This document shows, one piece after another, positions 6,412 to 57,930 of a stretch of 64,000 nucleotides of DNA (its first letter is position 1; each line of letters starts with the position of its first letter). The notes under the pieces were generated by a model. It searched no databases, was not told where the DNA came from, and was given only the letters and a program-made list of their open reading frames with translations. The translations under genes and the position numbers were made by a program. Source of the stretch: Stigmatella aurantiaca DW4/3-1. GTDB lineage: Bacteria > Myxococcota > Myxococcia > Myxococcales > Myxococcaceae. The stretch spans positions 5,164,893 to 5,228,892 of the forward strand of contig NC_014623.1 in assembly GCF_000165485.1 (NCBI RefSeq), in the 5' to 3' direction.

Positions 6412-6439
6412 GGGAGCGGAAGACGGTTCGGACGTGAGC

Positions 6440-12077: not shown

Positions 12078-13051
12078 GCCAGGGCGCTCTGAAGTCCCTG
12101 GGCGAGCGGGATGACGGGGGTGAAGCCCAGCTCTTTCGTCGCCCGCTCCGTGGAGCAGGTCCACGCCGCGCACCGCATCTCGCGGACCTTGTCGCGGCTG
12201 AGCATGGGGATCGTGCCCCGTACGCGCGCGGCCAGCTCCGAGCCCAAGCCCACCACGTAGCTGATTGCCTCGGGCACCGGCAGCACCGTGGGCGGCGCCC
12301 GCCCCAGGGCCTCCGCGAGCGTCACGCAGAAGTCTTCCCACCGGTACTCCGAGCCGTCCGACACCATGTAGACGCCCGCCTCGGGAGCGTCCTGGCGCAG
12401 CGTCTGGCCTCGCTCGGCCGCGGCGAGCAGCGCCGTGCAGAGATCATCCACGTGGATGAGCGAGTAGTGCTTCGGGCCAAAGCCGCTCTTGAGCACCAGC
12501 CCCAGCCGCGCCATGGGCAGCAGGGCGGGGAGGAACTCCTGATCGCCCGGCCCGTAGACGATGGGCGGGCGGACGATGACCGAAGGAACCCGGTCCGAGA
12601 ACTCGCGCACCGCGGCCTCGCCCCCCAGCTTGCTGCGGCCGTAGCGGGACACCGGCGCGGGAGTCTCCTCTTCCCGCCGGGGCTGGCCTGGGACGGAGGG
12701 GCCCGCGGCCGCCAGCGACGAGCAGAAGACGAGCCGGGGAGGCTTGGGCAGCGCCGCCAGGGCCCGGGCCAGCCGCCGGGTGCCCTCGGCGTTGCCCTGG
12801 AAGTAACCCTCCTCGGTCCGGGCCTTGGTGACGCCCGCCAGGTGGAGCACGCAGTCCACGCCGGCCACGGCCTCGGTGAGCCCCTGGCCCGTGAGCAAAT
12901 CCCCCTCGGCGAAGCGGACACCCAGCGCCTCCAGGGGCCCGCGCTTGGAGGTGCTGCGCACGAGCACGGTCAGCGTGTCGCCGCGCTCGATGATGCGGCG
13001 GGCGAGCCGCTGTCCAATGAATCCGGTACCACCCGTGAGGAGAAAGTGCAC
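12065..13051 (-). CDS. cerR: NAD(P)-dependent epimerase/dehydratase, probable ceramide reductase CerR
   Basis: This is a 328-residue extended short-chain dehydrogenase with the nucleotide motif LTGGTGFIGQRLA at the N-terminus, a YGRSK active-site motif (YxxxK) near residue 143, and the substrate-loop segment VIVRPPIVYGPGD. It is the third gene of a tight minus-strand operon behind serine palmitoyltransferase and a GNAT-type acyltransferase. In Caulobacter the bacterial ceramide pathway uses Spt, bCerS and the epimerase-like reductase CerR, which reduces oxidised ceramide. The same three families occur here in that company, so I assign that role. The alternative is an unrelated sugar or steroid dehydrogenase. 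Confidence 0.78.
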   Translation of the reverse strand: MHFLLTGGTGFIGQRLARRIIERGDTLTVLVRSTSKRGPLEALGVRFAEGDLLTGQGLTEAVAGVDCVLHLAGVTKARTEEGYFQGNAEGTRRLARALAALPKPPRLVFCSSLAAAGPSVPGQPRREEETPAPVSRYGRSKLGGEAAVREFSDRVPSVIVRPPIVYGPGDQEFLPALLPMARLGLVLKSGFGPKHYSLIHVDDLCTALLAAAERGQTLRQDAPEAGVYMVSDGSEYRWEDFCVTLAEALGRAPPTVLPVPEAISYVVGLGSELAARVRGTIPMLSRDKVREMRCAAWTCSTERATKELGFTPVIPLAQGLQSALAAPK

Positions 13052-13062
13052 TGAGAGGCCTT

Positions 13063-41266: not shown

Positions 41267-41505
41267 GACATCACCTGTTGTCCTCTCGGAGTCTCTTCAT
41301 CCAGAGGGAGTGTGGTGAGCCCTCATGTGATGTGCGCAGAAGGCAGAGGGCTTGCGGGAGGGCAGGCGCTCTCCACCACAGCCCTGCCCAGGAAGGCAGT
41401 TTCAGGGGCCGTTTGCCTGGCACCTGTCCCGGGGATGGCCGGCCCTTAACTTCTCACCGGGCGCCATGCCGGACGGTCTGCCAGGGAACACCAGAGGGCG
41501 ATGAG

Positions 41506-44500: not shown

Positions 44501-45537
44501 AACTGCGCAGCCTCCGGTCCCGTGAAATGGAGCAGAACTACTCCCGGGTGATGGAGCTGCTTCACCAGGTGGGGGATGCCATGCCCCGCCTGTCCATCTC
44601 CACCTGGGGGACGTATGCCTATGCCTTCGGGCGGGCGAAATTCCATGTAGCGCAGGAGCTGGCGGAGCTCACCGTGGGACAGGGAGAGCGCCAGCACAGC
44701 CGGGAACTGCTCGCCCTGGGGCACCGGATGATCGCCACCAACCACTTCACGTGGGGCAACATGTCCACGGCGCTGGAGCACGTCGATGCCGCGCTGGAGT
44801 TCTCGGATTTTGATCTCGCCCAGCACCGGGAGCTGGCCGTGAGGCAATGGGTCAACCCGCGCGTGGCCGCGCTGGCCTATGGCTCCGTCGTTCTGTCGGC
44901 CGTCGGCCGGGATGCCCTGGCCCGCCGCTATGGTGACGAGGCGGTGACGCTGGCGGAGAAGATCGGCCATCCCCACACCCTGGGTTTTGGATTGACCTAC
45001 GTGGCGCTGGGCTGCCAACTGCGCAAGGAGCCCGGGTGTGCCCAGCAATGGGTGGAGCGGTGCATCGCGATTTCCTCGGAGCACCACTTCCGGCTGTGGC
45101 TCGGCTGGTCCGTGTTCATCAAGAGTTGGCTGCTGGCCGAGCAGGGGCGGGTGCAGGAAGGACTCACGCTCATGCAGGCCAACCTCGCGAGGTGGCGCAA
45201 TGCGGGCATCCGGGCGGGCATGCCCTTGTTCCTGGGCATGTTCGCGGAACTCCACCTGAAGCTGGGCCAGTTCACCCAAGGGATGGCGGCGGTCACCCAC
45301 GCCCTGGGGTGGGCGGAGACGCTGGAGGAGCGCTCGTATGAGGCGGAGCTGCGACGCCTCGAAGGCGAGCTGCACCGGGCGCTTGGCAACGAATCCGCAG
45401 CCACGGAGTCGTTCTCGCAGGCACGGGCGGTGGCTCGCCTCCAAGGGTCGGCGGGCTTCGGCAGACGGGCCGAGGAGAGCTTGAATCGCCAGTTCCGTGA
45501 GCTGGGCTGGGATCGGGGCCACGCCCACCCGCGTTGA
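41506..45537 (+). CDS. Very large kinase / cyclase-like / STAND ATPase / TPR signalling protein
   Basis: The 1343-residue protein starts at ATG 41506 behind GAGGGCG. In order: a Ser/Thr kinase (residues about 47-315; GGGSMGLVFRA, VALKF, HRDLKPGNVFI near 174, LLDFGLAYL, PAYMAPEQW); a class III nucleotide-cyclase-like domain (about 327-515); a STAND ATPase with P-loop GEAGIGKSRLL at 568-578 and EDLHWADPSTLELL near 697; then TPR-like helices to the end. In the cyclase domain the first metal Asp position holds Trp (VTLVACWLSDLAG) while GDEVLACFGYP keeps the second, so it is probably not catalytic. It is followed at 33 bases by a sigma-factor gene on the same strand. Confidence 0.9.
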   Translation: MRQDGMESDEASEELDDVFLRHVAQVSVPLRTPMRGESLGGQDGRRFEIREQLGGGSMGLVFRARDQELQRVVALKFLHLRDRGSEEPMSALLRQEAKAIAQLDHENIVRIFDVAEWIGEPWEPKVPFLIMECLEGEPLSALLSRELPPLRRCIDIMRGMAAGLAHAHEHHIVHRDLKPGNVFITRSGQVKLLDFGLAYLTDAVSPAAPHLPAAGTPAYMAPEQWLGQAQDARTDIWAAGIVLFEMLTGELPCSEMSLVGLKEWALSPAPVASVRERRPELPEDVEQLLATMLAKAPEQRLASAAELGERLRQLEAGLTPWSGEMASLGPQRRQVTLVACWLSDLAGLAEHLDAEDFSDLEGAFHQACSEILAQHGGSITTCMGDEVLACFGYPQAREDDSEKAARAGLHLVTHLGAVIQQKLPYLPRRKLTVKVGLHTDTVVLDNLLPGLQGRTAALQGEAPKMAFWLARQAAPESVCLSHTAWHLVRDAFRTEPMGVHSFQGLSGEVKGAIYRLVREKRTTRSRFERAHESGGLTPWVGREAELRRLLGYWEQAQQGSGAFVLVQGEAGIGKSRLLQELRERISLEGGSRLHVQCWAQFSSSALRPIIELLLSVLKLDPEGNPQSNLRKLQGRMGAVGLPIEHVRMLAAFLSLPVAELPPHMRVAPERQKEKTFEALVTLLLRMTEDRPVFAVVEDLHWADPSTLELLGALLGHVGNARLCVFLSARPDFKPAWAENPRVHPVPLERLSPQQTAELIRLSTIGKALPDETVEQLVAKTDGVPLFAEEMTRMVVEQAPAGTAAGPPSTIPITLSGLLLARLDMLPRQQKTLAQLCAVVGRGFSHSLLTALSGRSPVNLQRDLTGLLQAGLLQQEEVASEARYRFRHALIQDAAYHSLLRRTRREYHRRIAQTLAIQAPELAETQPELLAHHYTEAGENERAIRLWTKAGEQASLRSANVEALRHLGQALRLLGTLPDTRARSEQELQLRVAFGMPLMQLRSLRSREMEQNYSRVMELLHQVGDAMPRLSISTWGTYAYAFGRAKFHVAQELAELTVGQGERQHSRELLALGHRMIATNHFTWGNMSTALEHVDAALEFSDFDLAQHRELAVRQWVNPRVAALAYGSVVLSAVGRDALARRYGDEAVTLAEKIGHPHTLGFGLTYVALGCQLRKEPGCAQQWVERCIAISSEHHFRLWLGWSVFIKSWLLAEQGRVQEGLTLMQANLARWRNAGIRAGMPLFLGMFAELHLKLGQFTQGMAAVTHALGWAETLEERSYEAELRRLEGELHRALGNESAATESFSQARAVARLQGSAGFGRRAEESLNRQFRELGWDRGHAHPR

Positions 45538-45570
45538 GTTCCCCGTCACAAAAAGGGGGGAGCCCACTCT

Positions 45571-46272
45571 ATGGAGGTGGACGGGGCCGCGGACATGTTG
45601 GGAGCAACCATGGCGATTGATCGCGAGAGGCTGGAGCGGGACATCCAGGAGCTGTGTCTGCGCAAGGACACGGGCAAGGCGGTGGAGCGGGCCCTGCAAG
45701 GCTACGGGATGGAGATCATGCGGCTCATCGCCTCCGTGCTGCACAACCCGGAGCAGGCCAAGGACGCCTTCAGCCTTTTCTGTGAGAGTCTTCTCAAGGG
45801 GTTGCCCGGGTTCCGGTGGGAGAGTTCCTTCCGGACGTGGGCTTACCGTCTGGCACGCAACGCCTGTTATCAGCTCATGCACGCGCCCTCCGGGCGCGAG
45901 CTGCCCGTCACGTCCTCGGCCTTTCCAGAGCAGCCTCAGTGGCACCGCTCCGACACGCGCCCCTGGCAGCGGACGTCGGTGAAGGAGCGCTTCCGGGCCC
46001 TGCGCGACAGCCTGGAGCCCGAGGAGCGCATGCTCCTGATGCTCCGTGTTGATCAGCGCCTGTCCTGGACCGAGGTGGCCCGCATCATGTGGGATCTGGA
46101 CGAGGCGCCCACGGGGGCGGCGCTGAGCCGCAAGGCCACGGCCCTGCGGCAGCACTTCCAGCGCGTCAAGACCCACTTGCGCACCCGGGCCATCGAGCAG
46201 GGCCTCATCGAGCAAGAGGAGGCCGCCTCCGCCAGGACGCCTTCACCGGAGGAGGAGGGCCCTTCTCCTTGA
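45571..46272 (+). CDS. ECF-type RNA polymerase sigma factor
   Basis: The 233-residue protein has a sigma-2-like region (MEIMRLIASVLHNPEQAKDA, SFRTWAYRLARNACYQLM, with the WAYRLARN element of region 2) and a sigma-4-like region (DSLEPEERMLLMLRVDQRLS, WTEVARIMW). The end is an acidic tail. ATG 45610 with GGAG five bases upstream is an alternative start. It follows the giant kinase gene by 33 bases in the same direction, so kinase and sigma factor may form one signalling line. It converges on the asparagine-synthetase gene of the peptide cluster. Control of that cluster by this sigma factor is possible but unproven. Confidence 0.82.
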   Translation: MEVDGAADMLGATMAIDRERLERDIQELCLRKDTGKAVERALQGYGMEIMRLIASVLHNPEQAKDAFSLFCESLLKGLPGFRWESSFRTWAYRLARNACYQLMHAPSGRELPVTSSAFPEQPQWHRSDTRPWQRTSVKERFRALRDSLEPEERMLLMLRVDQRLSWTEVARIMWDLDEAPTGAALSRKATALRQHFQRVKTHLRTRAIEQGLIEQEEAASARTPSPEEEGPSP

Positions 46273-46312
46273 GTCATCGCCCGGTTGACGGGCACGGCGT
46301 CCACGCTCGGTC

Positions 46313-48061
46313 TCAGACCCGGGTCAGCGCTTCGGTCAGCTCCCTCCGGTGTGTGGTGTAGAGCTCCCGCCACCGGAAGTCTTCGGGCAGATCGCCGCCT
46401 CTTCCGATGAAGAGGTACACGAACAAGTCCAACAGGATCCGCTGGGCCGGTGTGGCGCAGTAGCGTTGCAGGGGATGGGGTTCCCGCTCGTCCGACGGCA
46501 GGATCTCCCGGGCCGCGCGATCCAGTGCCTCCGCGGTGCGGCGGACCGCCGAAGGGGCCGCGAGCTTCGGCCGATCGACAATCACGGCGGCGAGGGAGGC
46601 GGGCAATACCTTCCGGGCCACCTCGCGCAGGAGCGCCTTGCGCACCCGTCCCCGGATGCGTTGCTCCCAGGGCAGGGCGAATGCCACGTCGCGGACGCTC
46701 CGGTCCAGGTACGGCACCCGGACCTCCAAGCCACTGGCCATGGAGCCTCCGTCCCAGACACGCAGGTGGGCGTCCGTGAGCTGGCCTTCCAGGAAAAAGC
46801 GATACACGGCCTCTCGCGCCGCCGCTGGGTCCGGGACGGCCATGGCATGAAGCGAGGCCTTGGCGGCCGCGCACTCGTCCTGGGGAATCTCTCCCGTCCG
46901 GATCATCCGGTTGTAGCCCTCCATGCAGGACTTCAACCAAGGGCCTGGCAGGGAGTGAATCACGTAGCCCGCGAACAGTTCATCCGCGCCATCCCCACAG
47001 AGCACGGCCTTGACGTGGTTCCGGATCAGCGGGGCGGCGCTCTCCACGATCGTCGGCTCGCCGGGGGCCTCCAGGGAGCAGATGGAGCGCGGAAGGGATT
47101 CCAGCAGGGTGTCCGGTTCGAAGCTGTACTCATGGTGATGCGTGCCCAGGGCCTCGGACAGCCGCCGGCTCACGGCGAGATCCGGCAGGGTGGGATCATC
47201 GGCCAGGGAGAAGGTGTGGATCTCCCGGGAGCCGCCCTGCGCCAGCAACGCGGCCAGCAGGGAGCTATCGACCCCACCCGAGAGGAAGATGCCCACGGGA
47301 TGGTCGGCCACCCACTGGCCGCGCACCGACTCCGTGAGCCGCTCGCGCAGCAGCTTGATCCGGTCTTCCTCGCGCTCGGGAAGGGGGAGGGGGCGGGGTG
47401 GGCTGTGCCGTCCCGCGCGCAAGGTCAGCGTGCCGTCCGGCTCGCGAGAGACCTCCAGGGTGCCTCCGGGGGGGACTTGGCGCACGGCCTTGAAGAGCGT
47501 GCGCTCCCCAAGGGTGAAGCGGAAGGTGGCCCACTCGAAGAGGGAGGTGCGGTCCAGCTCCCGCGGCAGCGCTGGATCCACGAGCAGCGCTTTGAGCTCC
47601 GAGGCGAACACGAGCCTGCGCCCCCCGTCGACGAGGGCGTAGTACAGGGGCTTGATGCCGAAGGCATCCCGGACCAGCGTGAGCCGCGCTCCATCCGAGA
47701 AGGCGAAGGCGAACATGCCTTCCAGCTCTTCCAGGCAGGCCAATCCGCGCTGCTCCAGGGCGCGCAGCAGCACCTCGGTGTCGCTGCGTGTCTGGAAGGC
47801 GACGCCCTCCTGTTCGAGGCTCCGGCGCAGCGTCGCGTGGTTGTACAGCTCTCCGTTGTAGACGAGCGTCAACCCTGTCCGGCCCGTCATGGGTTGGGCG
47901 CCGCCCTCCCAGTCCAGGAGGCTCAGGCGCGTGTTGCCCAGTCCCGCCTGGCCCACCACGGCCGTTCCGTGCCCATCCGGGCCGCGGTGGTGGAGCCGCC
48001 GCGTCATGCGCTCGAGCAGCACGGGATCCGGCCCACCAAAGATGCCAGCAATGCCGCACAC
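46313..48061 (-). CDS. asnB: Glutamine-dependent asparagine synthetase-like amidotransferase in the peptide cluster
   Basis: The 582-residue protein has an N-terminal glutaminase with catalytic Cys2 (MCGIAGIFGG) and LVYNGELYNHATLRR, and a synthetase domain with the ATP-pyrophosphate loop FLSGGVDSSLLAALLA. It also has VLCGDGADELFAGYV and LEVRVPYLDRSVRDVAF. These enzymes make amides from carboxylates and ATP. It may be primary-metabolic AsnB, but its place 28 bases downstream of a peptide-modifying glycosyltransferase gene, on the same strand, suggests it amidates the peptide product. It is not a lasso-cyclase type, because the glutaminase is intact. Confidence 0.85.
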   Translation of the reverse strand: MCGIAGIFGGPDPVLLERMTRRLHHRGPDGHGTAVVGQAGLGNTRLSLLDWEGGAQPMTGRTGLTLVYNGELYNHATLRRSLEQEGVAFQTRSDTEVLLRALEQRGLACLEELEGMFAFAFSDGARLTLVRDAFGIKPLYYALVDGGRRLVFASELKALLVDPALPRELDRTSLFEWATFRFTLGERTLFKAVRQVPPGGTLEVSREPDGTLTLRAGRHSPPRPLPLPEREEDRIKLLRERLTESVRGQWVADHPVGIFLSGGVDSSLLAALLAQGGSREIHTFSLADDPTLPDLAVSRRLSEALGTHHHEYSFEPDTLLESLPRSICSLEAPGEPTIVESAAPLIRNHVKAVLCGDGADELFAGYVIHSLPGPWLKSCMEGYNRMIRTGEIPQDECAAAKASLHAMAVPDPAAAREAVYRFFLEGQLTDAHLRVWDGGSMASGLEVRVPYLDRSVRDVAFALPWEQRIRGRVRKALLREVARKVLPASLAAVIVDRPKLAAPSAVRRTAEALDRAAREILPSDEREPHPLQRYCATPAQRILLDLFVYLFIGRGGDLPEDFRWRELYTTHRRELTEALTRV

Positions 48062-48089
48062 GGGAGGCTCCTCGGGGGCTCAGGCCCCC

Positions 48090-50060
48090 TTACGCACCCG
48101 CGCGAGGGGCGGCTGGCTTGACGAAGACGATGAGGCCTTCCTGGTGGAAGCGCTCCAGGGCCTGAAGCACCGCGGGCTCCACCTTCCCGGAGGAGGCCGC
48201 GCCCCGGCTCCGGTAGTGCTCGAGCAACTCACCCACCGTCTGCTGGCCGTTGCACCGATCGAGCAGCTCCGAGGTGAAGGGATTCACGCGGAAGTGATGC
48301 CCATAGAGGTTGGTCCGCTTGTGGAAGACGACGGTCGCCTCTCCGCCAGGGCTTGCCGCGCCGGCGAGCAGTCCCGGCGGCAACGCGTGGAAGCGCTCCA
48401 CCCGTACCCACTGGCTTCGCAGGGGCGCCAGCGCCCGAAGTGTCTCGGGAGAGGGGCCTCCCCGGGTGGCTTCCCACACGTCGGGACGCTCGAAGGCAGG
48501 CTGGGCTTCGTCCTCGGCCGTGAAGTGGCCCATCCACACGAGCAATCCCGTGTAGCGCGCCACCTCCGCCAGGGTGGCATCCCTCTGCGTTCCGCCCCCG
48601 CCCGTTTCGATCCACCGGCAGAACGCGCTCGCGTCCTCGAACAGGTGGGCAGGCTCCTTCGGGTGGGCTTCCAGGTACGCCTGGAGCGTCGCCTCGGCCC
48701 GCTCTCCGAGCGCCTCCAGCAGCCCCGGCACCGTTCGCCGCAAACCCTCCTCGCGGTTCTCGGGAAGCCCCCGCTCGGCCGCGGACATCTGTCCCGGCTG
48801 CCCGCGGTGCCGGGCGAGGACATCCTCGAAGAGGCGGGTGTACTCGGCGGCGAGATCTCTTGGGCGGATGGTCTCGAGCAGCTCATGGCCTTTCTGGCCC
48901 ATGCGCTGGGCGCCCTCGGGATCCTCGAGGGCCTTGCGCACCGCCGCCGCCAGGTCTTCCGTCACCTGGGGGTTCGGCACCAGCAGCATGTTCTGCCCGG
49001 AGATCAGGCGATCGTGGAACGGCTGCTTGGCGGCGACCTCTCCGGAGAGCACCAGGCAGGTGCCGCACCCCAGCACCTCCCGGGGCACCGTGGGCGCGTG
49101 GAAGGTGATGGGAAAGTCCCGTTCGAGGAAGCACACCGCGCGGCACGCGCGGATGAAGCGCGCCACGTTCCAGTGGGCGACGAAGGGGAGGATCCAGGTC
49201 ACCTCGCTCAGGCCCTGCTCCTCCACCGCCTTGAGCAGGGGGCCTACCCGCTTGCCGCGCGTGAGCGACACGAAGTGGAACTTCTGCCCCTCCTTGCGCA
49301 GCTGGCCGAGCGCCTTCACCAGATCATACGTCCCCTTGTTCACGCCGACCTTGCCGTAGATGCCAATCACCGGCACCGAGGGATCGATGGGGCGCCGGTT
49401 GTTCAGCAGGTGGGGCTGATCGCGGGCCACCTCGTTCAGGTAGCCGTTCAGATCGAGCGGCTCGACGTCCGGCCGGAAGCGCTGGCGGATGATGTCGGGC
49501 GGAGGCCCCCGGTAGAGGTTGCTGGGGGGCACCCCCATGCCGAGGAACAACAGCGGGTTGCCCACGCAGACGCCGTTCGCGCGCCGGATGATCTCCCGGT
49601 ACGTGGTGCCCAGGCCATGCCGGTTCATCAGCCGGCCCAGGTCGCTGCCGGCATTGCGCACCAGGTAGGGCACACCGGTCCACGACGAGGCCATGTGCGC
49701 CGCGACGCCGTAGGGCTCGTAGTAGTAGCTGAAGATGATCTCGCAGCGGTGGCGCCGGACAACCTCCGTGGCCACGCCCGCGAGCTTGCCCACGTAGGGG
49801 TTGGTCTGGGGCACGTGCAGGAAGATCGGGGACATGCGCTCGGTCCCGTGCAGCTGGACACGCCCCGTGCCGAAGGAGGGCTCCAGCCAGGTGCGGTCCT
49901 CCTGCGTGAGCATGAGCCGGTAGTCTTCTTCCACCTCATCCGCGTTGGTGACCACGTGCACTTCGTGGCCTGCTTCGGCCAGCGCGCGGCACATCCAATA
50001 GGATTGGGCGCTCACACCGCCCTGGATGGGCGGGTACTTGATGATGGCACAGATGCGCAC
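48090..50060 (-). CDS. GT4 glycosyltransferase fused to a peptide-binding (partner/PqqD-like) module
   Basis: The 656-residue protein opens as a GT-B glycosyltransferase (KYPPIQGGVSAQSYWMCRAL; VPVIGIYGKVGVNKGTYDLV; FHAPTVPREVLGCGTCLVLS) to about residue 420. The rest does not belong to GT4 enzymes: helical sequence LLEALGERAEATLQAYLEAH and LAEVARYTGLLVWMGHF, then a basic sheet SQWVRVERFHALPP, and finally a winged-helix-like end (HHFRVNPFTSELLDRCNGQQ, TVGELLEHY, LERFHQEGLIVF). The same order of elements closes the MNIO protein next door (LGDIVRFERTQLEL; HVRVERFGCDV; LAINERTRSLLALCDGTRTT). I infer that it glycosylates the precursor peptide and holds it with this module. It ends 28 bases before asnB. 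Confidence 0.8.
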   Translation of the reverse strand: MRICAIIKYPPIQGGVSAQSYWMCRALAEAGHEVHVVTNADEVEEDYRLMLTQEDRTWLEPSFGTGRVQLHGTERMSPIFLHVPQTNPYVGKLAGVATEVVRRHRCEIIFSYYYEPYGVAAHMASSWTGVPYLVRNAGSDLGRLMNRHGLGTTYREIIRRANGVCVGNPLLFLGMGVPPSNLYRGPPPDIIRQRFRPDVEPLDLNGYLNEVARDQPHLLNNRRPIDPSVPVIGIYGKVGVNKGTYDLVKALGQLRKEGQKFHFVSLTRGKRVGPLLKAVEEQGLSEVTWILPFVAHWNVARFIRACRAVCFLERDFPITFHAPTVPREVLGCGTCLVLSGEVAAKQPFHDRLISGQNMLLVPNPQVTEDLAAAVRKALEDPEGAQRMGQKGHELLETIRPRDLAAEYTRLFEDVLARHRGQPGQMSAAERGLPENREEGLRRTVPGLLEALGERAEATLQAYLEAHPKEPAHLFEDASAFCRWIETGGGGTQRDATLAEVARYTGLLVWMGHFTAEDEAQPAFERPDVWEATRGGPSPETLRALAPLRSQWVRVERFHALPPGLLAGAASPGGEATVVFHKRTNLYGHHFRVNPFTSELLDRCNGQQTVGELLEHYRSRGAASSGKVEPAVLQALERFHQEGLIVFVKPAAPRAGA

Positions 50061-50090
50061 GAGGCTCTCCTGAGAGCGCGGAGGAGGGGT

Positions 50091-51863
50091 TCAGCTCGCG
50101 AAGGTGAGGGTGAGGGCGTTCAGTTCATGGAGGCGGCGGATCACCTCGGCACAGGCCAGCGCCTCCTGAGACTTCCCGGCCCCCGCGCCCGGTGAGAGCT
50201 GGGCGGCGATCTCCACCGTGGTCCGGGTGCCATCGCAGAGCGCGAGCAGCGAGCGCGTGCGCTCATTGATGGCCAGGTGGCGCACGTTGCGGAAGCCTGG
50301 GGCCTTGGTGAAGAGCACGGCGGTGGCGGTGCTTGGAATCTCTTGAGGATCCTGGCCCGCGTTGATGCGCCGCACGAGATCGACGACGTCACACCCGAAG
50401 CGCTCCACGCGCACGTGGGCGCCGGTGCGGGGCCGGGAGGCCAGGACGGTCTCGGCGCCTGGGGAGGGCGTGGTCTCGAAGGCCTGGCGGAAGTCCTTGG
50501 CGCTCTGCACGGGCTCGACCGTCGAGGACAGCTCGAGCTGGGTGCGCTCGAAGCGCACGATGTCGCCGAGCGGTGTGCGCAGCTCCGGCCGCTCCGTCAG
50601 CACCTGGTCGAGCATTCGCAGGAACCAGAAGCCGTCCCGCACCGAGCGATTCACGAACTCGGAGGAATAGAGCGGGGCGTTTTCATCGACGAAGCGGTGC
50701 GCGAGCTCGTGCCAGAGCCCCCGGTTCTGCAACCACTTGCAGCTCGCCGGGGCCGCCTTCGCCAGCAGGGAGAGCCGCTTGCTCGCCAGATCGTGCGCGA
50801 AGGAGGAGAGGTGCTCCGCGCCCACGGCGAGCAAGGCCTCCGTCTGCTCGCCCCGGAGGGACAGCTCCTCGCCCACGGCCTGGGGCGTGGCCAGGAACCG
50901 CTTGCGGAGTTCCGGCTCCACGAGGAGCCGGGCCAGCGCCGTCTGGAACGTCAGCTCATCCATCGGGAGCGGCACGGGCTCGGCGCTCGCCGGGGGGAGG
51001 GCGGGGGCCGGGGGCCGGGGCGCCCGGTGGTGCGCGCGGTGCATGATGTCCCGCGCCCGATCGAGATCCTGGAGCATCTCCTGGAACTCCTCGGGGAAGT
51101 TCTGGTCGCGCTCGATCAGCACCGCCCGGATCTCACTGCGCCGCGCCACGTACTCCAGCAGCCGCCACACCTCGGGGTTCGCGTCCACGCGCTGGCTGTG
51201 GCTGTCGATCCACTGCGCGCCCCGCCGCTCTCCGCCCGCCAGGTGCACCTGGATGACGCGCTCCAGGGGCAACGCGTCCAGGAGGGCGTACGGATCGTAC
51301 CGGTGGTTCTGGGAGTTGATGAAGACGTTGGCCAGATCGAGCAGCAGACCGCAGTCCGCCTCGGTGACGACCCGGGTGACGAACTCCGCCTCGCCCAGGG
51401 GGCTGGGGAAGGCGAAGGCATAGGTGATGTTCTCGACCAGGAACGGAACGCCGAGGATCTCCTGCACCTGGCGCGCTTTCCTCGCGCACCGGCGGACCGC
51501 TGCCTCGGTGAAGGGCAGGGGGGTGAGCTGTCCGAGCTCCACGCCGCCTGCCTTCGTCATGCACAGGTGATCGCTGGAGAAGGGGGCCCGGACGAGCTTC
51601 ACCAACTCCGCCACCTCCTCACAGTACTCGACGTCCAAGGGCCCATCGGTGCCCAGGGAGGTTTCCAGCGCATGAGGAATGAGCGGGTGCCGCTCCAACA
51701 GGGGCAGCGCCCGCTCGATGCTCTCGGGAACGGAGCGAACGTACCGGTCGGCGATCAGCTCGAACCAGTCAATGCGATCCGCGTACTTCGATTGGTGCTC
51801 GCGCAGCTCGGGGCGGTAACCAATGCCCGCCCCCAGGGTGGGCAAGTCTTCCAACCGGGCCAA
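50091..51863 (-). CDS. MNIO (DUF692) multinuclear iron oxidase fused to partner and winged-helix module
   Basis: MNIO enzymes use two or three iron ions to oxidise cysteines or other residues of ribosomal peptides (methanobactin, 3-thiaglutamate, bufferins). Residues about 10-280 show the family landmarks: GAGIGYRPELREHQSKYADR, SSDHLCMTKAG, PFLVENITYAF, LLLDLANVFINSQNHRYDP, VIQVHLAGGE, WIDSHSQRV and LIERDQNFPEEF, which contain the His/Glu/Asp/Asn iron ligands. Residues about 305-500 look like the usually separate partner protein, and the last 85 like a PqqD-type peptide-binding domain. The start is TTG 51863, five bases after the precursor stop; upstream GTG codons overlapping the precursor are alternatives. 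It is 30 bases upstream of the GT4 gene. Confidence 0.87.
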   Translation of the reverse strand: MARLEDLPTLGAGIGYRPELREHQSKYADRIDWFELIADRYVRSVPESIERALPLLERHPLIPHALETSLGTDGPLDVEYCEEVAELVKLVRAPFSSDHLCMTKAGGVELGQLTPLPFTEAAVRRCARKARQVQEILGVPFLVENITYAFAFPSPLGEAEFVTRVVTEADCGLLLDLANVFINSQNHRYDPYALLDALPLERVIQVHLAGGERRGAQWIDSHSQRVDANPEVWRLLEYVARRSEIRAVLIERDQNFPEEFQEMLQDLDRARDIMHRAHHRAPRPPAPALPPASAEPVPLPMDELTFQTALARLLVEPELRKRFLATPQAVGEELSLRGEQTEALLAVGAEHLSSFAHDLASKRLSLLAKAAPASCKWLQNRGLWHELAHRFVDENAPLYSSEFVNRSVRDGFWFLRMLDQVLTERPELRTPLGDIVRFERTQLELSSTVEPVQSAKDFRQAFETTPSPGAETVLASRPRTGAHVRVERFGCDVVDLVRRINAGQDPQEIPSTATAVLFTKAPGFRNVRHLAINERTRSLLALCDGTRTTVEIAAQLSPGAGAGKSQEALACAEVIRRLHELNALTLTFAS

Positions 51864-51867
51864 GTTT

Positions 51868-52068
51868 TCAGGCGGTCTTGGAGGTCGTGGAGACACAGCC
51901 ACACAGGCAGCCGGAGCCGCACGCACAGCTGATGCAGACGCTGCCCGCGTCCGTGAAGGAGTAGGCAGGACCACAGTCCAGCATCTCCAGCTTGAACTCC
52001 TCGGTCTCCACTTGCGGCGCGGAGGGCCTGACTACTTGCGGGTTGGGAACAGCACTGGCGTTGTCCAT
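51868..52068 (-). CDS. Cys-rich RiPP precursor peptide (66 residues)
   Basis: This small gene starts at ATG 52068 behind GAGGAA and ends four bases before the MNIO gene. The first 31 residues are Cys-free and likely the leader (acidic TEEFKLEMLD before the first Cys). Seven cysteines follow at 32, 45, 48, 50, 54, 56 and 58; the last six form CISCACGSGCLCGC, then VSTTSKTA with many Ser/Thr at the end. This CxxCxCxxxCxCxC core is a natural target for MNIO oxidation, and the Ser/Thr tail for glycosylation. There is no signal peptide. I recognise no named family. Its own promoter and a palindrome lie just upstream. Confidence 0.85.
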   Translation of the reverse strand: MDNASAVPNPQVVRPSAPQVETEEFKLEMLDCGPAYSFTDAGSVCISCACGSGCLCGCVSTTSKTA

Positions 52069-52104
52069 GGCATTCCTCGGCGCTCAACAAAAGGTGGAGA
52101 AGTC

Positions 52105-52134
52105 AGACTAAGCCTCACTCTGAGGCTGGGTCAA
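52105..52134 (-). promoter_or_regulatory. Promoter with embedded palindrome for the RiPP operon
   Basis: Reading the minus strand, TTGACC (52134-52129) and TAGTCT (52110-52105) are separated by 18 bases, which is sigma70-like spacing. The spacer contains a perfect palindrome GCCTCA-CTC-TGAGGC (52112-52126 on the plus strand), ideally placed for a repressor to block polymerase. The expected transcript starts about 30 bases before the precursor ATG. It lies just after the GT1 glycosyltransferase stop. Confidence 0.6.
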
Positions 52135-52163
52135 TACATTGTCTTGAATGTTTCAATCTCGCT

Positions 52164-53303
52164 TCACCTCGGCCGGAGGGTGAGGCTTTTCACCACCGTC
52201 TCGACACCGTTTCGGGGGGACAAGGTGGTGGCGAGCGCGCGCGCCTGAGCCTGGATGGAGGGGGACTCCAGCGCATGACGTAGCGCGGCAATGAGGGTGG
52301 GCGCGTCCACGCCTCGGGCCGGCACGGGGGCGGGGGCGATTCCCAGCCGGTGGGCCCGCTCCGCCCAGAAGGGTTGATCGTACGCATGGGGCACCACGAC
52401 CTGGGGCACCCCCGCGCGAGCGGCCGCCGCCAGGGTGCCTGCGCCCCCGTGGTGCATCACGGCCGCGACGCGAGCGAAGAGCTGGGCATGCGAGGTGTGG
52501 CCGATGCGAAAGAGCTGCCCGTTCGTCTCTTGGCGTCCGGGGGGCACCGTGCCGGTGTAGAGCAGGGCGCGGCAGCCCACGGCGCCGACCACCTCCCGGA
52601 GGAGGTGCTCGTTGAGTCCGGGAGCGCTCCCCGTGAGGCTGCCGAAGCCGATGTAGACAGGAGGGGCCCCCGCCGCCAGGAAGGCCTCGAGCCCGGCGTC
52701 GAGCGGCCGGGGATCCTCGAGCAGCAGTGCCCCCGTGGGTGGAGCCCAGAGCGTCACACCGCCCAGGGGGCCCACGAGCGCCGCGTCCGCGGCGAGCAGC
52801 ACGCGCTCGGGGGCGAACGCGTAGGCGAGCAGGTTCTCCACGTCCGGCAGCCCGTGCTTGGAATGGAAAGCGCGCAGGGTTAGGAGCAATGGCTCCGGCA
52901 GGAGGATGGAGCGGCGCCCGCTGGGCATGAAGAGGCCCGGGGCATAGGCCACGGCCAGCGAGGCCACCCCCGCGGCCTCGGCCGCGGAGCGGACCGCGAA
53001 GGCCATCCCCGCCCCCAGGACGAGATCGGCTCCGGCCGCCAACGCGGGAAGAACGTCGAGCTGCGCTTGAAGCTCTTGCGCGAGGAAGGCCTGGATGGCG
53101 TTGGGACCGGACTGCGTCCGGAGGAATTCGTCCGCGTCTCGCCCCAGCGGGACGAAGGGCACCTCGAAGGCGGCGGCGTCGGGCGCATAGAGCGGCCGTG
53201 CCGCCACCGTGGCCTCATGTCCCGCGGCGCGCAGCCCTCGGGCCAGGGCCAGCATGGGCTGGAAGTCTCCGCGGGAGCCTGGCGCCGCGAGCAGGAATTT
53301 CAT
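52164..53303 (-). CDS. GT1/MGT-type glycosyltransferase
   Basis: The 379-residue GT-B enzyme begins MKFLLAAPGSRGDFQPMLAL and has VYIGFGSLTGSAP and the sugar-nucleotide motif AAVMHHGGAGTLAAAARAGV, then PHAYDQPFWAERAHRLG. This is the pattern of macrolide, sterol and antibiotic glycosyltransferases. I start at ATG 53303, nine bases after GAAGGG; ATG 53312 would leave no spacing. It lies on the same strand directly upstream of the peptide promoter, so it may be a second sugar-adding enzyme for the peptide or an independent self-resistance or tailoring gene. It is divergent from the AtuA-like gene. Confidence 0.85.
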   Translation of the reverse strand: MKFLLAAPGSRGDFQPMLALARGLRAAGHEATVAARPLYAPDAAAFEVPFVPLGRDADEFLRTQSGPNAIQAFLAQELQAQLDVLPALAAGADLVLGAGMAFAVRSAAEAAGVASLAVAYAPGLFMPSGRRSILLPEPLLLTLRAFHSKHGLPDVENLLAYAFAPERVLLAADAALVGPLGGVTLWAPPTGALLLEDPRPLDAGLEAFLAAGAPPVYIGFGSLTGSAPGLNEHLLREVVGAVGCRALLYTGTVPPGRQETNGQLFRIGHTSHAQLFARVAAVMHHGGAGTLAAAARAGVPQVVVPHAYDQPFWAERAHRLGIAPAPVPARGVDAPTLIAALRHALESPSIQAQARALATTLSPRNGVETVVKSLTLRPR

Positions 53304-53405
53304 GACGCCCATCCCTTCACGAATAGCGCATTGCCTTGTCAGGCGGGTCTACCATTGCCAGGAGTTGGGCGGTACCCTTGAAGGTTCGCTGCCAGTGGAG
53401 GCCTC

Positions 53406-55100
53406 GTGAGCACGTCCCCCTTTCGTATCGGCAATGCCTCGGGCTTCTATGGTGACCGCTTCTCGGCCTTCCGCGAGATGCTCGAAGGGGGACGGCTCGA
53501 CGTCCTCACCGGGGACTACCTCGCCGAGTTGACGATGCTCATCCTCGGCCGGGACCGGATGAAGGATCCGGACGGGGGCTTCGCGAAGACCTTCCTCCGG
53601 CAGATGGAGCAGTGCCTGGGGCTGGCCGCCGAGAAACGGGTGAAGATCGTCACGAACGCGGGCGGGTTGAACCCCGCGGGCCTCGCCGCCGCGCTGCGGG
53701 CCCTGGCCGGGCGCCTCGGCGTGAAGGTCCAGGTGGCTCACGTCGAGGGGGATGATCTCCTGGGGCGTGCCGGGGAGCTGGGGCTCGGAACGCCCCTCAC
53801 GGCGAACGCCTACCTGGGCGCGTGGGGGATCGCCGCGTGCCTGCGCGCGGGGGCCGACATCGTCGTCACCGGACGGGTGACCGATGCGTCGCTCGTCGTG
53901 GGCCCGGCCGCCGCGCACTTTGGCTGGCGGCCCGATGAGTGGGACCGGCTCGCGGGGGCCATGGCGGCCGGTCACGTGCTCGAGTGCGGGGCTCAGGCCA
54001 CGGGCGGCAACTACTCGTTCTTCACGGAGGTGGACGTCCGCCGCCCGGGCTTCCCGATCGCCGAGATCGACGCTTCAGGTGCCTGTGTCATCACGAAGCA
54101 CGAGGGCACCGGCGGCGCGGTGACCGTCGACACGGTGCTCGCGCAGATGCTCTATGAGATTTCGGGCGCCCGGTACGCGGGGCCCGACGTGACGGCGCGC
54201 TTCGATACCGTGGAGCTGTCCTCGGAAGGGCCCGACCGCGTCCGCATGAGCGGGGTGCGGGGTGAGCCGCCGCCTCCCACGGTGAAGGTCTGCTTGAACC
54301 ACCTGGGTGGGTTCCGCAACGAGATGACCTTCGTCCTCGTGGGGCTGGACATCGAGCAGAAGGCGCACCTGGTGCGCGAGCAGCTCGAAGCGGCCCTGGT
54401 CAAGAAGCCGAAAGAAGTTCACTGGACGCTTGTCCGGACCGATCGGGAGGATGCGCCCACGGAGGAGCAGGCGGCGGCGTTCCTGCGGGTCGTGGTGAAG
54501 GATCCCGACACGAAGGTGGTGGGGCGTGCCTTCAGCGGGGCGGTGATTGAGCTGGCCCTGGCCAGCTATCCAGGCTTCACGATGACGACGCCGCCCACGG
54601 ACGGCGCGCCCTATGGCGTGTACACGCCCGCATATATTGATGCGGGACAGGTCGAGCACGTCGCCGTCCTACCGGATTTGACGCGAAGCGTTATTCCGCC
54701 ATCCAAGGAGACGCGCGTGCTGGAGGCGGTGGCGCCTCCCGCGCTTCCCTTGCCACTGCCTGCCGGGCCGACGCGCCGCGTGCCCCTGGGACGTGTCGCC
54801 GCCGCCCGGAGTGGCGACAAGGGCGGAACGGCGAACATCGGGCTCTGGGTGCGGACGGACGAGGCCTGGCGGTGGCTGGTGCATGCGCTCACCGCCGATG
54901 CGCTTCGGGAACTGCTTCCCGAGACGAAGGCGTTTCCCATCGAGCGGCACCTCTTCCCCCGTCTCCGGGGGGTGAACTTCGTCATCGACGGATTGCTCGG
55001 TGAGGGCGTTTCCTCCTCGACGCGCTTCGATCCCCAGGGAAAGGCGCTCGGAGAGTGGCTCCGGTCGCGCCATGTCGATGTTCCCGAAGCGCTCCTGTGA
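53406..55100 (+). CDS. AtuA-like DUF1446 protein
   Basis: The 564-residue protein begins at GTG 53406 with GGAGG upstream. It matches the acyclic-terpene-utilisation AtuA type: RIGNASGFYGDRFSAFREML, VKIVTNAGGLNPAGLAAALR, GADIVVTGRVTDASLVVGP, then ASGACVITKHEGTGGAVTVD, and a C-terminal AARSGDKGGTANIGLWVRT domain that is a separate protein in some genomes. AtuA is needed for citronellol and geraniol breakdown in Pseudomonas, but its chemistry is unknown. No other Atu gene is near. It converges with the GH127 gene at 7 bases. Confidence 0.85.
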   Translation: MSTSPFRIGNASGFYGDRFSAFREMLEGGRLDVLTGDYLAELTMLILGRDRMKDPDGGFAKTFLRQMEQCLGLAAEKRVKIVTNAGGLNPAGLAAALRALAGRLGVKVQVAHVEGDDLLGRAGELGLGTPLTANAYLGAWGIAACLRAGADIVVTGRVTDASLVVGPAAAHFGWRPDEWDRLAGAMAAGHVLECGAQATGGNYSFFTEVDVRRPGFPIAEIDASGACVITKHEGTGGAVTVDTVLAQMLYEISGARYAGPDVTARFDTVELSSEGPDRVRMSGVRGEPPPPTVKVCLNHLGGFRNEMTFVLVGLDIEQKAHLVREQLEAALVKKPKEVHWTLVRTDREDAPTEEQAAAFLRVVVKDPDTKVVGRAFSGAVIELALASYPGFTMTTPPTDGAPYGVYTPAYIDAGQVEHVAVLPDLTRSVIPPSKETRVLEAVAPPALPLPLPAGPTRRVPLGRVAAARSGDKGGTANIGLWVRTDEAWRWLVHALTADALRELLPETKAFPIERHLFPRLRGVNFVIDGLLGEGVSSSTRFDPQGKALGEWLRSRHVDVPEALL

Positions 55101-55107
55101 AGGGGGC

Positions 55108-57930
55108 TTACTTGATCAGCCAGTTGTGATCGGGCGTCCCGTTGTCCTGGTACTGCTCGACGTTGGCCGAGTCGGCCGTCGACGCGTTGTGGACGGCGAG
55201 CACCTTGCCGCTGTTCGCGTTCTGGATCCGCACCGAACCACTTCCACCCGTGTTGACCCGGATTCGCCACAGGTGGTCCGCGGTACCGGTGTCGTCGAAC
55301 TGCACGACCTGCGCCGAGTCCGCCGTCGACATCCCGCTCACGCCGAGCACCTTGCCTGAGTTCACATTGCGGATGCGGAAGTAGCCATTCGCGTCCGGCA
55401 GGAACACCCACCGGTGGTCTGCCGAGCCAACATCGGAGTACTGCTGCACCCGCGCCGAGTTGGCGGTGGACATGTTCTCCACGGCGAGCATCTTGCCGGA
55501 GTGGACGTTCTGGATCTTGATCGAGCCATCGGGGATCAGACGCCAGTCGTGGTCCGCGGTGCCGGTGTCGTCGAACTGCACGGCCTGCGCCGAGTTGGCG
55601 GTGGACATCCCGCTGACGCCCAGCACCTTTCCGCTGTTGCCGTTGCGCAGCCGCATCCAGCCATTGCCGGAGTCGATCAGTTGCCACCGGTGGTCTGCCG
55701 AGCCGACATCGGAGTACTGCTGCACCCGCGCCGAGTTGGCGGTGGACATGTTCTCCACGGCGAGCACCTTGCTGGAGTTGACGTTCTGCAGCTTCACGAA
55801 GCCGCCCCCGGCGTCGATGATCCGCCACAGGTGGTCGGCGGTGCCGTTGTCATCGAACTGGACGACGTTGGCCGAGTCGGCACCCGACATTCCGTCCACG
55901 CCGAGCACCTTGCCCGAGTGGCGGTTTTGCAGCCGGTAGTTCGCGCCCTGCGGCACCCACGCGCGGGTCCCACCGGTCTGCGGGAAGGCGGTGATCCGCA
56001 GCCGGGCCGCGCCCATCGGAATGAGCGTCACGGGCTCGACCGGGGTGGCGGTGGCGATGGGGCCGTCCTGAAGGGGGGTGACGACGTGCTGGCTGTCGGC
56101 TTGCCATCCGTCGATGCGTTGGCCGCTGGTGGTCAACCGGATGGGGGCATTGGCCGGTGTGAACGGATCGGCGAGGTTGCCGACCCCGGTGGTCACGGAG
56201 ATCGCCGCGCCAGGCACCAATCCGTAGTTCCAGGAAGAGCCCGCGTGCACGTCGTACTGGGGCCACTGGGCGGTCCCGCCCGTCTGGACCCAGTTCTCGG
56301 TGATGCGCAGCGAGAACGTCAGGGGCCCGTGGTTGACCGAGACAGCATTGTGCTGCGCCGGCCACGTGCGCACGGTGGGGCGCATCGGCAACCGGAGCGT
56401 GACGGTGTCGCCGTTGGCCCAGGTCCGGGTGGTGCTCGCGTAGCGAGGCCCACCGCTGACGGGAACCGTCGCGCCGTTGATCCGCAGCTCCGGCGCGGTA
56501 CACCACGCCGGGATGCGCAGTTGCAGCGGGAAGGTGGCGGGCCCGGTCATCGCGAGGCTCAGCGTGATGGTGTCCGTGAAAGGGTAGTGGGTGTTCTCGG
56601 TGATGGTGACCCGGACGCCGCCCGCCACGGTGGCGGTCACCGTACAGGGCCCATACATCGCCGCGCACAAGCCCCCATCGGGCGTGGCGAGCCACATCTC
56701 CTCGACGAAGTACGGCCAGCCCATGCCGTAGTTGTGCGGACAGCAGCGGTACTCGTCGATGCCGGACTTGTAGGACTGCATGGCAAAGCCGTTCTGGAAT
56801 TGCCCCAGGGTCTTCGGGGCGTTGTCCAGATCGATGCTGTTGGCGCTGGTGATGTAGTGGATCGACCGGCCCAGCGGGTCCAGGGCCGCGGGCAGCGAGT
56901 TGAACGCCAGGTCCTCGACGCGGTCCGCCCACACCGGGTCGCCGGTGATCCGGTTGAGCAGCTCGTGGCTCAGCATGTACTCGACGATGCCGCACGTCTC
57001 GAAGCCCTGGCGGGGATCCACCAGGCCGGCCCGGATGTTCTCATCCCCGGCGAAGCCACCCCCGGGGAACTGTCCGAAGCGCGCTTGCACATCGTTGTAG
57101 CGGTCGTAGCTGGCGGTGCGGTGCCGCGCCTCGCCGGAGAGCACCCCATACTGGGCGGGCTCCCGGAAGCCCTGCGCGATGTTGACGTTGTGCAGGTTGG
57201 GCAGGCCGTCGACCCAGTTGGCCGAGTTGCTGTGGATCTTCCGGACCAGGTCGAGCAGGAACGGGTCGCCCGTATGGTTGTAGAGCCAGTAGATGACGTC
57301 GATCGCGTCCCCCCACCGCCAGGTGCCCCAGCCATCGCGGAACACACCGGTCGGCTGGCCATTGAGGTAGGAAAAGAACCGGGTGAGGAACGGGACAATT
57401 CGGCTGTCCCCCGTGTATTCGGCGTGTGCCCGCAGCGCCTGGAGCATCGGCATGTGCGGCCAGACATCGGCGTGCCCATTGAGCGAGGTGCGCAAGCCCG
57501 TGGGGCCGAAGAAGCCATCGGAGGCTTGGGTTCCGAGCACGCCATCGATCCAGCGGGACGCCGTGGACAGCACGGTGGGGTTGCCAGTGACGTAGCCGAG
57601 GTCGACGTAGCCGCGCAGCCAGTAGGTGACCTCTTCCCAGCCCCCGAGGTTGGGCCGGGTCCATCCCGTGTTGTCGTATTGGAGGAAGTGGGACACCTCC
57701 ATGAACCGACCGCAGAGGCCATTGACCTGGCGGTCCAACTGGGTGGCAAGCCAGCCCTGGGGCCGGACAGCCCCTGGCGGCAGGCGCAGGAACGCGTCCG
57801 GCCGCAGCGGGGATCGGTTGAGCATGTAGGCGGCCGCGGCCGCGGCTTGGGCCTCGCCGGGACGGGCCACCACGGCCGCACCGGCGGCAGCCAGACCGCC
57901 CTTGATGAGTTCACGTCTGTCGATCTTCAT
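55108..57930 (-). CDS. Tat-exported GH127 beta-L-arabinofuranosidase-like enzyme with ricin-type lectin repeats
   Basis: The 940-residue protein has a twin-arginine signal (MKIDRRELIKGGLAAAGAAV). The catalytic part (to about 640) carries the GH127 zinc site: GFETCGIVEY near residue 312 (Glu-x-Cys) and EYRCCPHNYGMGW near residue 394 (two Cys, one the nucleophile), so the active site is intact. From about 665 to the end come six repeats of about 46 residues, each with a SGKVLxV...QFDDTGTADHxWRI pattern, forming two ricin-type trefoils. It would cleave plant or microbial arabinofuranosides outside the cell while bound to sugars. The start is ATG 57930 with AGAGGTG eight bases upstream. Confidence 0.92.
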   Translation of the reverse strand: MKIDRRELIKGGLAAAGAAVVARPGEAQAAAAAAYMLNRSPLRPDAFLRLPPGAVRPQGWLATQLDRQVNGLCGRFMEVSHFLQYDNTGWTRPNLGGWEEVTYWLRGYVDLGYVTGNPTVLSTASRWIDGVLGTQASDGFFGPTGLRTSLNGHADVWPHMPMLQALRAHAEYTGDSRIVPFLTRFFSYLNGQPTGVFRDGWGTWRWGDAIDVIYWLYNHTGDPFLLDLVRKIHSNSANWVDGLPNLHNVNIAQGFREPAQYGVLSGEARHRTASYDRYNDVQARFGQFPGGGFAGDENIRAGLVDPRQGFETCGIVEYMLSHELLNRITGDPVWADRVEDLAFNSLPAALDPLGRSIHYITSANSIDLDNAPKTLGQFQNGFAMQSYKSGIDEYRCCPHNYGMGWPYFVEEMWLATPDGGLCAAMYGPCTVTATVAGGVRVTITENTHYPFTDTITLSLAMTGPATFPLQLRIPAWCTAPELRINGATVPVSGGPRYASTTRTWANGDTVTLRLPMRPTVRTWPAQHNAVSVNHGPLTFSLRITENWVQTGGTAQWPQYDVHAGSSWNYGLVPGAAISVTTGVGNLADPFTPANAPIRLTTSGQRIDGWQADSQHVVTPLQDGPIATATPVEPVTLIPMGAARLRITAFPQTGGTRAWVPQGANYRLQNRHSGKVLGVDGMSGADSANVVQFDDNGTADHLWRIIDAGGGFVKLQNVNSSKVLAVENMSTANSARVQQYSDVGSADHRWQLIDSGNGWMRLRNGNSGKVLGVSGMSTANSAQAVQFDDTGTADHDWRLIPDGSIKIQNVHSGKMLAVENMSTANSARVQQYSDVGSADHRWVFLPDANGYFRIRNVNSGKVLGVSGMSTADSAQVVQFDDTGTADHLWRIRVNTGGSGSVRIQNANSGKVLAVHNASTADSANVEQYQDNGTPDHNWLIK
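55408..55767 (-). repeat. Near-identical DNA repeats in the lectin region
   Basis: Two stretches of about 85 bases, near 55408-55491 and 55684-55767, are almost identical (for example CGGAGTACTGCTGCACCCGC in both) at a spacing of 276 bases, which equals two lectin repeats. This shows recent internal duplication of repeat pairs. The other units are more diverged. Confidence 0.75.

Follow-up and report, generated by a model that had tools for sequence, protein, structure and literature searches.

A Stigmatella aurantiaca gene cluster predicted to join an MNIO oxidase and a module-bearing GT4 glycosyltransferase on a cysteine-rich ribosomal peptide

What product arises from five adjacent genes of Stigmatella aurantiaca DW4/3-1 that combine a small cysteine-rich peptide with a predicted peptide oxidase, two glycosyltransferases and an amidotransferase? 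The genes lie in a 64,000-nucleotide stretch (the window; RefSeq assembly GCF_000165485.1, contig NC_014623.1, positions 5,164,893 to 5,228,892), for which a first-pass annotation, made from the letters alone, had proposed a new system for a ribosomally synthesized and posttranslationally modified peptide (RiPP). We consider it probable that the genes form an operon for a ribosomal Cys-rich peptide and represent a glycosylating branch of the RiPP systems that use multinuclear nonheme iron-dependent oxidative enzymes (MNIOs). Directly established were the gene order, its conservation, the domain homologies, the retention of catalytic residues and the coinheritance of the MNIO with a family 4 glycosyltransferase (GT4) that bears an additional module. 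The same unit was found in three other Myxococcota genomes, and the four loci are called window-type below. The features, in the order of transcription, are as follows.

52164 to 53312, minus strand: GT1 glycosyltransferase, EryCIII/Rgt-like by Pfam and NCBIfam, found in three of the four window-type loci
51868 to 52068, minus strand: precursor peptide of 66 residues with seven Cys, conserved beside the MNIO in four genomes
50091 to 51863, minus strand: MNIO of the MbnB/TglH/ChrH family (PF05114) with a fused C-terminal partner module
51042 to 51833, minus strand: catalytic domain of the MNIO (PF05114, residues 48-311, 255.6 bits, cut-off 25)
50091 to 50978, minus strand: partner module of the MNIO, with an N-terminal helical NHLP/LigA-like part and a C-terminal ApyI/HvfC/PqqD-like part
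48090 to 50060, minus strand: GT4 glycosyltransferase with a predicted C-terminal peptide-recognition module
48090 to 48818, minus strand: C-terminal GT4 module, a homologue of the partner module of the MNIO (hhalign; Pfam PqqD)
46313 to 48061, minus strand: AsnB-type glutamine amidotransferase with Cys2 and the SGGVDSS motif

The placement of all five genes on one strand, as first annotated, was borne out when the coordinates were verified, and Pfam and NCBIfam matches back the gene names. The intergenic gaps are 95 (GT1-peptide), 4 (peptide-MNIO), 30 (MNIO-GT4) and 28 bases (GT4-AsnB). No sigma-70-like promoter was detected in 45900-53600, where three terminator-like sites were counted versus 2.4 expected, and no Rfam family reached its gathering score in 44000-56000.

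Is the peptide a real gene? Its leader (VETEEFKLEMLD) contains the invariant block VETEEFKLEMLDCGP and is followed by the Cys-rich core CGPAYSFTDAGSVCISCACGSGCLCGC and a short Ser/Thr tail. A search of 195 Myxococcota genomes, including that of the window, gave strong matches in four of them (E 4.8e-41, 2.5e-37, 4.7e-21 and 1.6e-18), and in the three other genomes the peptide lies in register beside the MNIO, with 91, 65 and 58% identity. The VETEEFKLEMLDCGP block is identical in all four genomes, its DNA differing at third codon positions only, and the leader as a whole is conserved more than the tail. Compared with its nearest relative, the window has six silent codon changes and six that replace a residue; the latter affect positions 12-13 and 61-65 and spare both the conserved block and the core. 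Furthermore, the codon pattern of the CxxCxCxxxCxCxC core (51895-51936) occurs once in the window and was met in none of 100 shuffles. Because the frame is conserved in register beside the MNIO and differs in the VETEEFKLEMLDCGP block at third positions only, we conclude that the 66-residue peptide is a genuine gene. The proposal of a RiPP-type locus was supported, and the refuting condition named in the first-pass annotation, a peptide frame not conserved beside DUF692 (MNIO) homologues, did not apply. Weak peptide matches in 17 further Myxococcota genomes (best E 0.003-0.08) were rejected, their loci of approximately 2-3 kb containing no MNIO, GT4 or AsnB.

The neighboring enzyme keeps the iron ligands of an MNIO. 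The mechanically called open reading frame (ORF) begins at 51974, inside the peptide gene. The likely start is the TTG at 51863, 4 bases past the peptide stop, since in the alignment this codon coincides with the ATG (MARL...) that starts the Plesiocystis homologue; residues are numbered from it. According to PMC8888699, the iron ligands of VcMbnB are His55, His91, Glu135, Asp165, Asn168, His194, Asp209 and Glu238. All eight align to H64, H99, E144, D176, N179, H207, D220 and E251 of the window MNIO and are invariant in the four window-type MNIOs. The nearest characterized MNIOs by score are of the bufferin and HvfB types (201 and 198 bits).

Among the solved-structure relatives of the window MNIO is TglH (8hci). 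Together with the stronger conservation of the leader than of the tail, it would suit a pearlin-like carrier, on which a small molecule is built, glycosylated and then released. Pearlins work through a C-terminal Cys that is added to the peptide. The cores found here, however, contain several encoded Cys, and neither a protease nor a ligase that could drive a cycle of this kind was recognized in the cluster, so that we regard a carrier function as improbable.

How could the oxidase and the GT4 act on the same peptide? Past PF05114, the MNIO extends for approximately 295 residues, with a match to ApyI and weak ones to HvfC and to an NHLP-type leader family, and the GT4 has approximately 240 residues beyond its glycosyltransferase domains. 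From the window-type loci and their relatives, 20 MNIO partner modules and 19 GT4 modules were aligned. In all 16 relatives used, MNIO and partner have separate genes, whereas the two are fused in the four window-type loci. Comparison of the two alignments with hhalign gave a probability of 99.7% and an E value of 2.4e-26 over 216 columns, and both profiles matched the PqqD structure 5sxy of the PDB, the partner profile weakly (E 0.011) and the GT4 profile with E 3.9e-6. At E 0.01, 14 of the 20 partner modules matched HvfC and nine matched ApyI; the GT4 modules matched PqqD (13/19), ApyI (6/19) and HvfC (4/19). The Pfam PqqD model gave 25.4 bits on the GT4 fragment of the window (cut-off 23.4) and 22.9 bits on the whole protein. 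On the strength of the hhalign homology and the shared match to the PqqD structure, the GT4 appears to carry the same kind of module as the MNIO. In line with this, the peptide-binding glycosyltransferase of the first-pass annotation has at its C terminus a homologue of the MNIO partner module, predicted to be of the peptide-binding type.

Would the GT4 still be an enzyme? It matches Pfam families of the GT4/GT1 group and keeps the motifs KYPPIQGGVS, HAGSD and LERDFP...H.P...E, which are common, with some variation, to its relatives, short ones included. These data bear on the view that the locus makes an unglycosylated, bufferin-like metal-chelating peptide and that the GT4 is merely a second structural partner of the MNIO, acting through its module. 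The MNIO scores fit this view, as do the many CxC and CxxC pairs of the core and the MNIO-partner type of the GT4 module, and the HvfC-related partner and the Cys-rich substrate are further points that the locus shares with bufferins. However, the MNIO already has a partner module of its own, and the motifs shared with the short GT4 relatives suggest that catalysis was retained. Moreover, the peptide N terminus MDNASAVPNPQVVRPSAPQ has no hydrophobic stretch by reading alone, so that, unlike bufferins, the precursor is without an evident signal peptide; the EGKCG motif was likewise not seen by reading. The window MNIO also stays below the BufB cut-off (201.3 of 310 bits) and the HvfB cut-off, and the window differs from bufferin loci by GT4, AsnB and GT1 and by the fusion of the partner to the MNIO. 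The DUF2063 partner, a bufferin trait, gave no Pfam match at E 1 in the cluster proteins. Taken together, we consider the nonglycosylated peptide unlikely and retain glycosylation by the GT4 as the preferred reading.

How far does the system extend? Within Myxococcota, strong matches to the peptide, to the fused MNIO C-terminal half and to the GT4 were found in the identical four of the 195 genomes. The MNIO half gave in addition one weak partial match (E 7.1e-4), in a short locus of genome G084 without a cluster gene. AsnB comes next in all four window-type loci, and GT1 is present in three, being absent beside the peptide in G117; the proposed five-gene order thus held for AsnB and failed for GT1 in one locus. 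The flanks of the cluster are different in G081 and G117, and in four Stigmatella genomes (G096, G097, G098 and G100) the right-hand AtuA gene is present without any cluster gene in the approximately 16 kb beside it; in Stigmatella G099, no AtuA match was obtained. The variable flanks and these Stigmatella genomes show that the unit is an accessory, patchy cassette. A Plesiocystis version (L040) and a Sorangium version (L043) were not among the 195, which means either that the species are outside the set or that their matches were too weak for the thresholds.

In a search of genome contigs, the single GT4 protein retrieved no relative, and an alignment of GT4s then gave 36 loci. They were collected with the GT4 alignment alone and scored afterwards with MNIO, AsnB and peptide profiles. 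An MNIO was present in 23 of the 24 loci with a GT4 frame of at least 600 residues and in one of the 12 with a shorter frame; the 600-residue cut was set after the lengths had been seen, and one of the short group (L075) is a 57-residue frame only. In the exceptional long locus (L044) the contig ends, and in the exceptional short one (L056) an ORF of its own, following the GT4, encodes the module (E 3.9e-37). Similarly, the module profile matched 23 of the 24 long GT4s and none of the 12 short ones; 15 of the long GT4s had gone into the profile, and eight of the remaining nine matched (all except L060). By name, the 24 MNIO loci belong to six phyla: Myxococcota, Chloroflexota, Acidobacteriota, Actinomycetota, Pseudomonadota and, with one metagenome-assembled genome (MAG), Bacillota. 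The search in myxobacterial genomes that the first-pass annotation had suggested recovered the unit in four of 195, that of the window included, and the system turned out to be much broader than the myxobacterial five-gene order.

Is the GT4 a general companion of MNIOs? In ten genomes (that of the window and nine behind the loci), 25 PF05114 matches were found, of which ten belong to the system. The 15 others, from eight genomes, had neither a GT4 nor an AsnB profile match within approximately 5-6 kb to either side; some of these control loci have partner-module matches, as expected of MNIOs. When 28 GT4-linked MNIOs and 14 others were placed in one tree, the GT4 link needed two changes versus a mean of 11.8 in shuffles. 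The fork that joins the main GT4-linked group (23 MNIOs) is weak (83/74), and therefore one or two origins are both possible. The 15th control was below the tree threshold. This third MNIO-like gene of the window genome is a 723-residue frame of unusual length (L092:5215-7383; C1:5640100-5652900) with a divergent MNIO domain at residues 211-452 (104 bits).

The distribution also bears on the view that GT4, GT1 and AsnB serve surface-polysaccharide synthesis, lie beside the peptide and the MNIO by accident and include an AsnB that amidates a uronic acid. Short GT4s lacking the module indeed adjoin AsnB in two of the 12 loci without an MNIO (L073 and L074), and the window AsnB resembles the XrtA/PEP-CTERM amidotransferase (294 bits, cut-off 817). 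Against this, the module-bearing GT4s are tied to MNIOs across the six phyla, and their module is homologous to the MNIO partner. We hold a chance neighborhood to be very improbable; the polysaccharide view survives for the substrate of AsnB only.

What might AsnB contribute to a glycosylated MNIO product? Enzymes of the AsnB type serve as lasso cyclases (PMC12710340), and AsnB matches the lasso cyclase model NF033535 with 145 bits. Closure of a macrolactam in lasso-cyclase fashion can thus be envisaged; this score, however, is far below the cut-off of 525, and no lasso B2-like protease was recognized in the cluster genes or in ten neighboring ORFs scanned, which sets the locus apart from lasso peptide clusters. 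Furthermore, the glutaminase residue Cys2 is kept in the four window-type copies and in seven MNIO-linked relatives, which fits ammonia transfer. Macrolactam formation therefore has little to commend it, and we favor an amidating AsnB. Its gene occurs in seven of the 24 wider loci with MNIO and GT4 in addition to the four window-type loci, so amidation would be optional, and both AsnB and GT1 are accessory to the system. The window genome encodes two more, distant AsnB-like frames (37 and 33% identity); the cluster AsnB is therefore not the sole copy.

If the wider loci make peptides, do they encode precursors? Candidates precede the MNIO, or the GT4 in two near-copies (L054 and L055). The Plesiocystis candidate, FELVDMGPGY...CLSCYCGSGCLCG, was the only match of the peptide profile among the 36 loci (E 7.5e-14). 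The other candidates include a PFLFERV/PYLFERV/PFLLE group (Sorangium, Nocardia, Actinosynnema and Asanoa) and an FELRAMKP group that has CxxC repeats (Streptomyces, Kitasatospora, Caldilineaceae and Acetobacteraceae). Two Alphaproteobacteria have candidates with CSCGCGCG-like tails, Catellatospora and Mycobacterium have candidates with CxxxCGCSC, and a Thermoanaerobaculia MAG encodes seven GG-leader peptides in an array. An alternating strand before the core (FKLEML, FELRAM or LFERV) recurs by eye and would suit binding by a RiPP recognition element (RRE). Immediately in front of the MNIO, 15 of 24 relatives have a small ORF with at least three Cys near its end, versus 49 of 191 other genes (Fisher p 5e-4, by a loose criterion and with relatedness ignored). 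In six of 16 candidate precursors (L043, L046, L049, L054, L056 and L069), no Ser/Thr lies between the cysteines, and therefore a Cys-linked sugar stays in play; all six have Ser/Thr elsewhere.

Several of these loci hold further genes of interest. In the Thermoanaerobaculia MAG, the seven peptides with GG-type leaders surround the MNIO and GT4 genes (L042:5855-7673 and 12875-13153), and CxxCxxCxxCxxC is the core of five. This MAG also has a second GT4, which ends in a PqqD-like part (L042:3752-5776); a single enzyme set may serve many precursors there. LanB-type lantibiotic dehydratases adjoin the MNIO/GT4 clusters of Asanoa (L047:11984-15112 and L048:14358-17420), suggesting hybrid chemistry, and in an Anaerolineae MAG two Nif11-leader peptides (L041:1721-2074 and 6144-6485) flank MNIO and GT4 in addition to a small CxxC ORF. 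A Bryobacterales locus has a MacB-like permease between AsnB and GT4 (L053:7467-9944), followed after the GT4 by a weak M50-peptidase match (L053:12010-13257; 17.6 bits, cut-off 27.2) and a second glycosyltransferase (L053:13235-14932); the permease and the M50-like protein are possible export and leader-removal parts that the window does not have.

Several observations weigh against the reading of the locus as part of a glycosylating, leader-guided MNIO system. For HvfC, ApyI and PqqD, the window proteins score under the curated cut-offs, the one exception being PqqD on the fragment of the GT4. The AlphaFold models, built from four-row alignments, were of low quality (mean predicted local distance difference test score, 47.8 for the MNIO and 48.8 for the GT4), and therefore the RRE fold is argued for by sequence profiles only. 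No exporter or protease was recognized in the five cluster genes or the ten neighboring ORFs. In nine of the 24 relatives, the test for a Cys-rich ORF before the MNIO found none; seven of the nine have a candidate by eye, with fewer Cys or elsewhere, and two (L057 and L063) have none that convinces. Among its hits, that in L058 and two of three in L052 look like chance frames. The loci include near-copies (for example, L052/L053, L054/L055 and L059/L061), and the counts therefore overstate independence. Finally, in a sample of the actinobacterial family of Nocardia colli, an MNIO was found in 56 of 201 genomes and the module profile matched in at least two, a lower bound since 13 candidates per genome were scored. 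The two are the query genome and G357, where the match is a fragment in a locus without MNIO or GT4. MNIOs without this GT4 are far commoner, and the GT4-linked ones are a minority.

Does the locus belong to a described class? Judged by PF05114, the iron ligands and the conserved precursor, which are the tests that could be decided on the sequence, it is an MNIO RiPP system; as in such systems, a precursor is conserved beside the MNIO, here in four genomes and, as a related peptide, in Plesiocystis. It shares with the aminopyruvatides (ApyH/ApyI) a partner module that matches ApyI (E 1.1e-9), and differs by an ApyH score of 106 of 400 bits, by the Cys-rich core and in that no P450 was recognized in the cluster. 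Methanobactin loci (MbnB/MbnC) are similar in the retained iron ligands and in a Cys-containing core next to the MNIO; unlike them, the window MNIO reaches 40 of 325 bits for MbnB, the cluster gave no MbnC match, and it contains extra glycosyltransferases. With glycocins, the locus has in common the idea of a glycosyltransferase acting on a Cys-rich ribosomal peptide. Glycocin enzymes, however, are GT2, whereas the window enzyme is a GT4 with its own predicted recognition module and is accompanied by an MNIO.

Fusions of RREs with glycosyltransferases were proposed as new RiPP clusters in 2020 with RRE-Finder (PMC7470986), and the window GT4 resembles them in being joined to an RRE-type module, as suggested by its PqqD match and its homology to the MNIO partner; the accessible part of that paper names no MNIO, precursor family or distribution for them. 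In the main text of the 2025 MNIO landscape paper (PMC12452194), "glycosyl" does not occur; the paper shows a Plesiocystis partner protein, possibly that of L040 or another. RiPP literature that names both MNIO and glycosyl (PMC13174530, PMC12710340 and PMC12707348) contains, in its searchable parts, no description of this system. Thus, the combination of MNIO, glycosyltransferases and AsnB, which the first-pass annotation did not recognize from described pathways, was found in no description in the searchable literature, to which most subscription papers do not belong. Within the same body of text, no description was found of the MNIO-linked class of module-bearing GT4s, and RRE-glycosyltransferase fusions as such have been known since 2020.

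Next to the cluster, genes for a 1,419-residue serine/threonine kinase with an AAA domain and a sigma-70 region 2 protein (41278-46272) converge on its 3' end. They adjoin the cluster in G095 too and are not present in the G081 and G117 loci. The G095 cluster is bordered by a short-chain dehydrogenase (L034:6149-6952) on one side and by a 1,482-residue protein with DGxDNDxDGxxDC repeats (L034:14046-18494; by reading, without a Pfam match) on the other, both absent from these places in the window.

Which pathway would such an operon encode? We infer all of the chemistry, its sequence and the function, be it metal binding or signaling, from the enzyme families. The leader strand around EEFKLEML would be bound by the RRE-type partner module of the MNIO and then by the homologous module of the GT4. 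The MNIO would oxidize at least one Cys of the core, most likely to a thiooxazole-type group, like its nearest characterized relatives; thiooxazole formation by MNIOs has been reported. The GT4 would then transfer a sugar to the same peptide, at a Cys sulfur, at Ser/Thr or at the group made by the MNIO. AsnB could amidate a carboxylate on either the peptide or the sugar, and GT1 may attach a further sugar in some strains.

What would this mean for MNIO peptides in general? With more reserve than for the operon itself, we suggest a RiPP class that spans phyla, in which an iron oxidase and an unrelated GT4 share a duplicated partner/RRE module and act sequentially on one Cys-rich peptide, the sugar being placed on a Cys sulfur or on the group made by the MNIO; we hold this to be possible, with the balance somewhat against it. 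If true, glycosylation joins the peptide chemistry of MNIOs, and the copying of one recognition module to a second enzyme would have created an assembly line. The Cys-linked case would, to our knowledge, be the first GT4 peptide S-glycosyltransferase and give the first glycosylated MNIO product. The module-bearing GT4 is a search handle for clusters and candidate precursors across six phyla. These include cores such as CIVCFVCFVCIVC and CTGCEGCDRCNGC, for which the accessible results of the MNIO landscape paper (PMC12452194) give no description. In this way, the residue that accepts the sugar becomes a testable chemical question.

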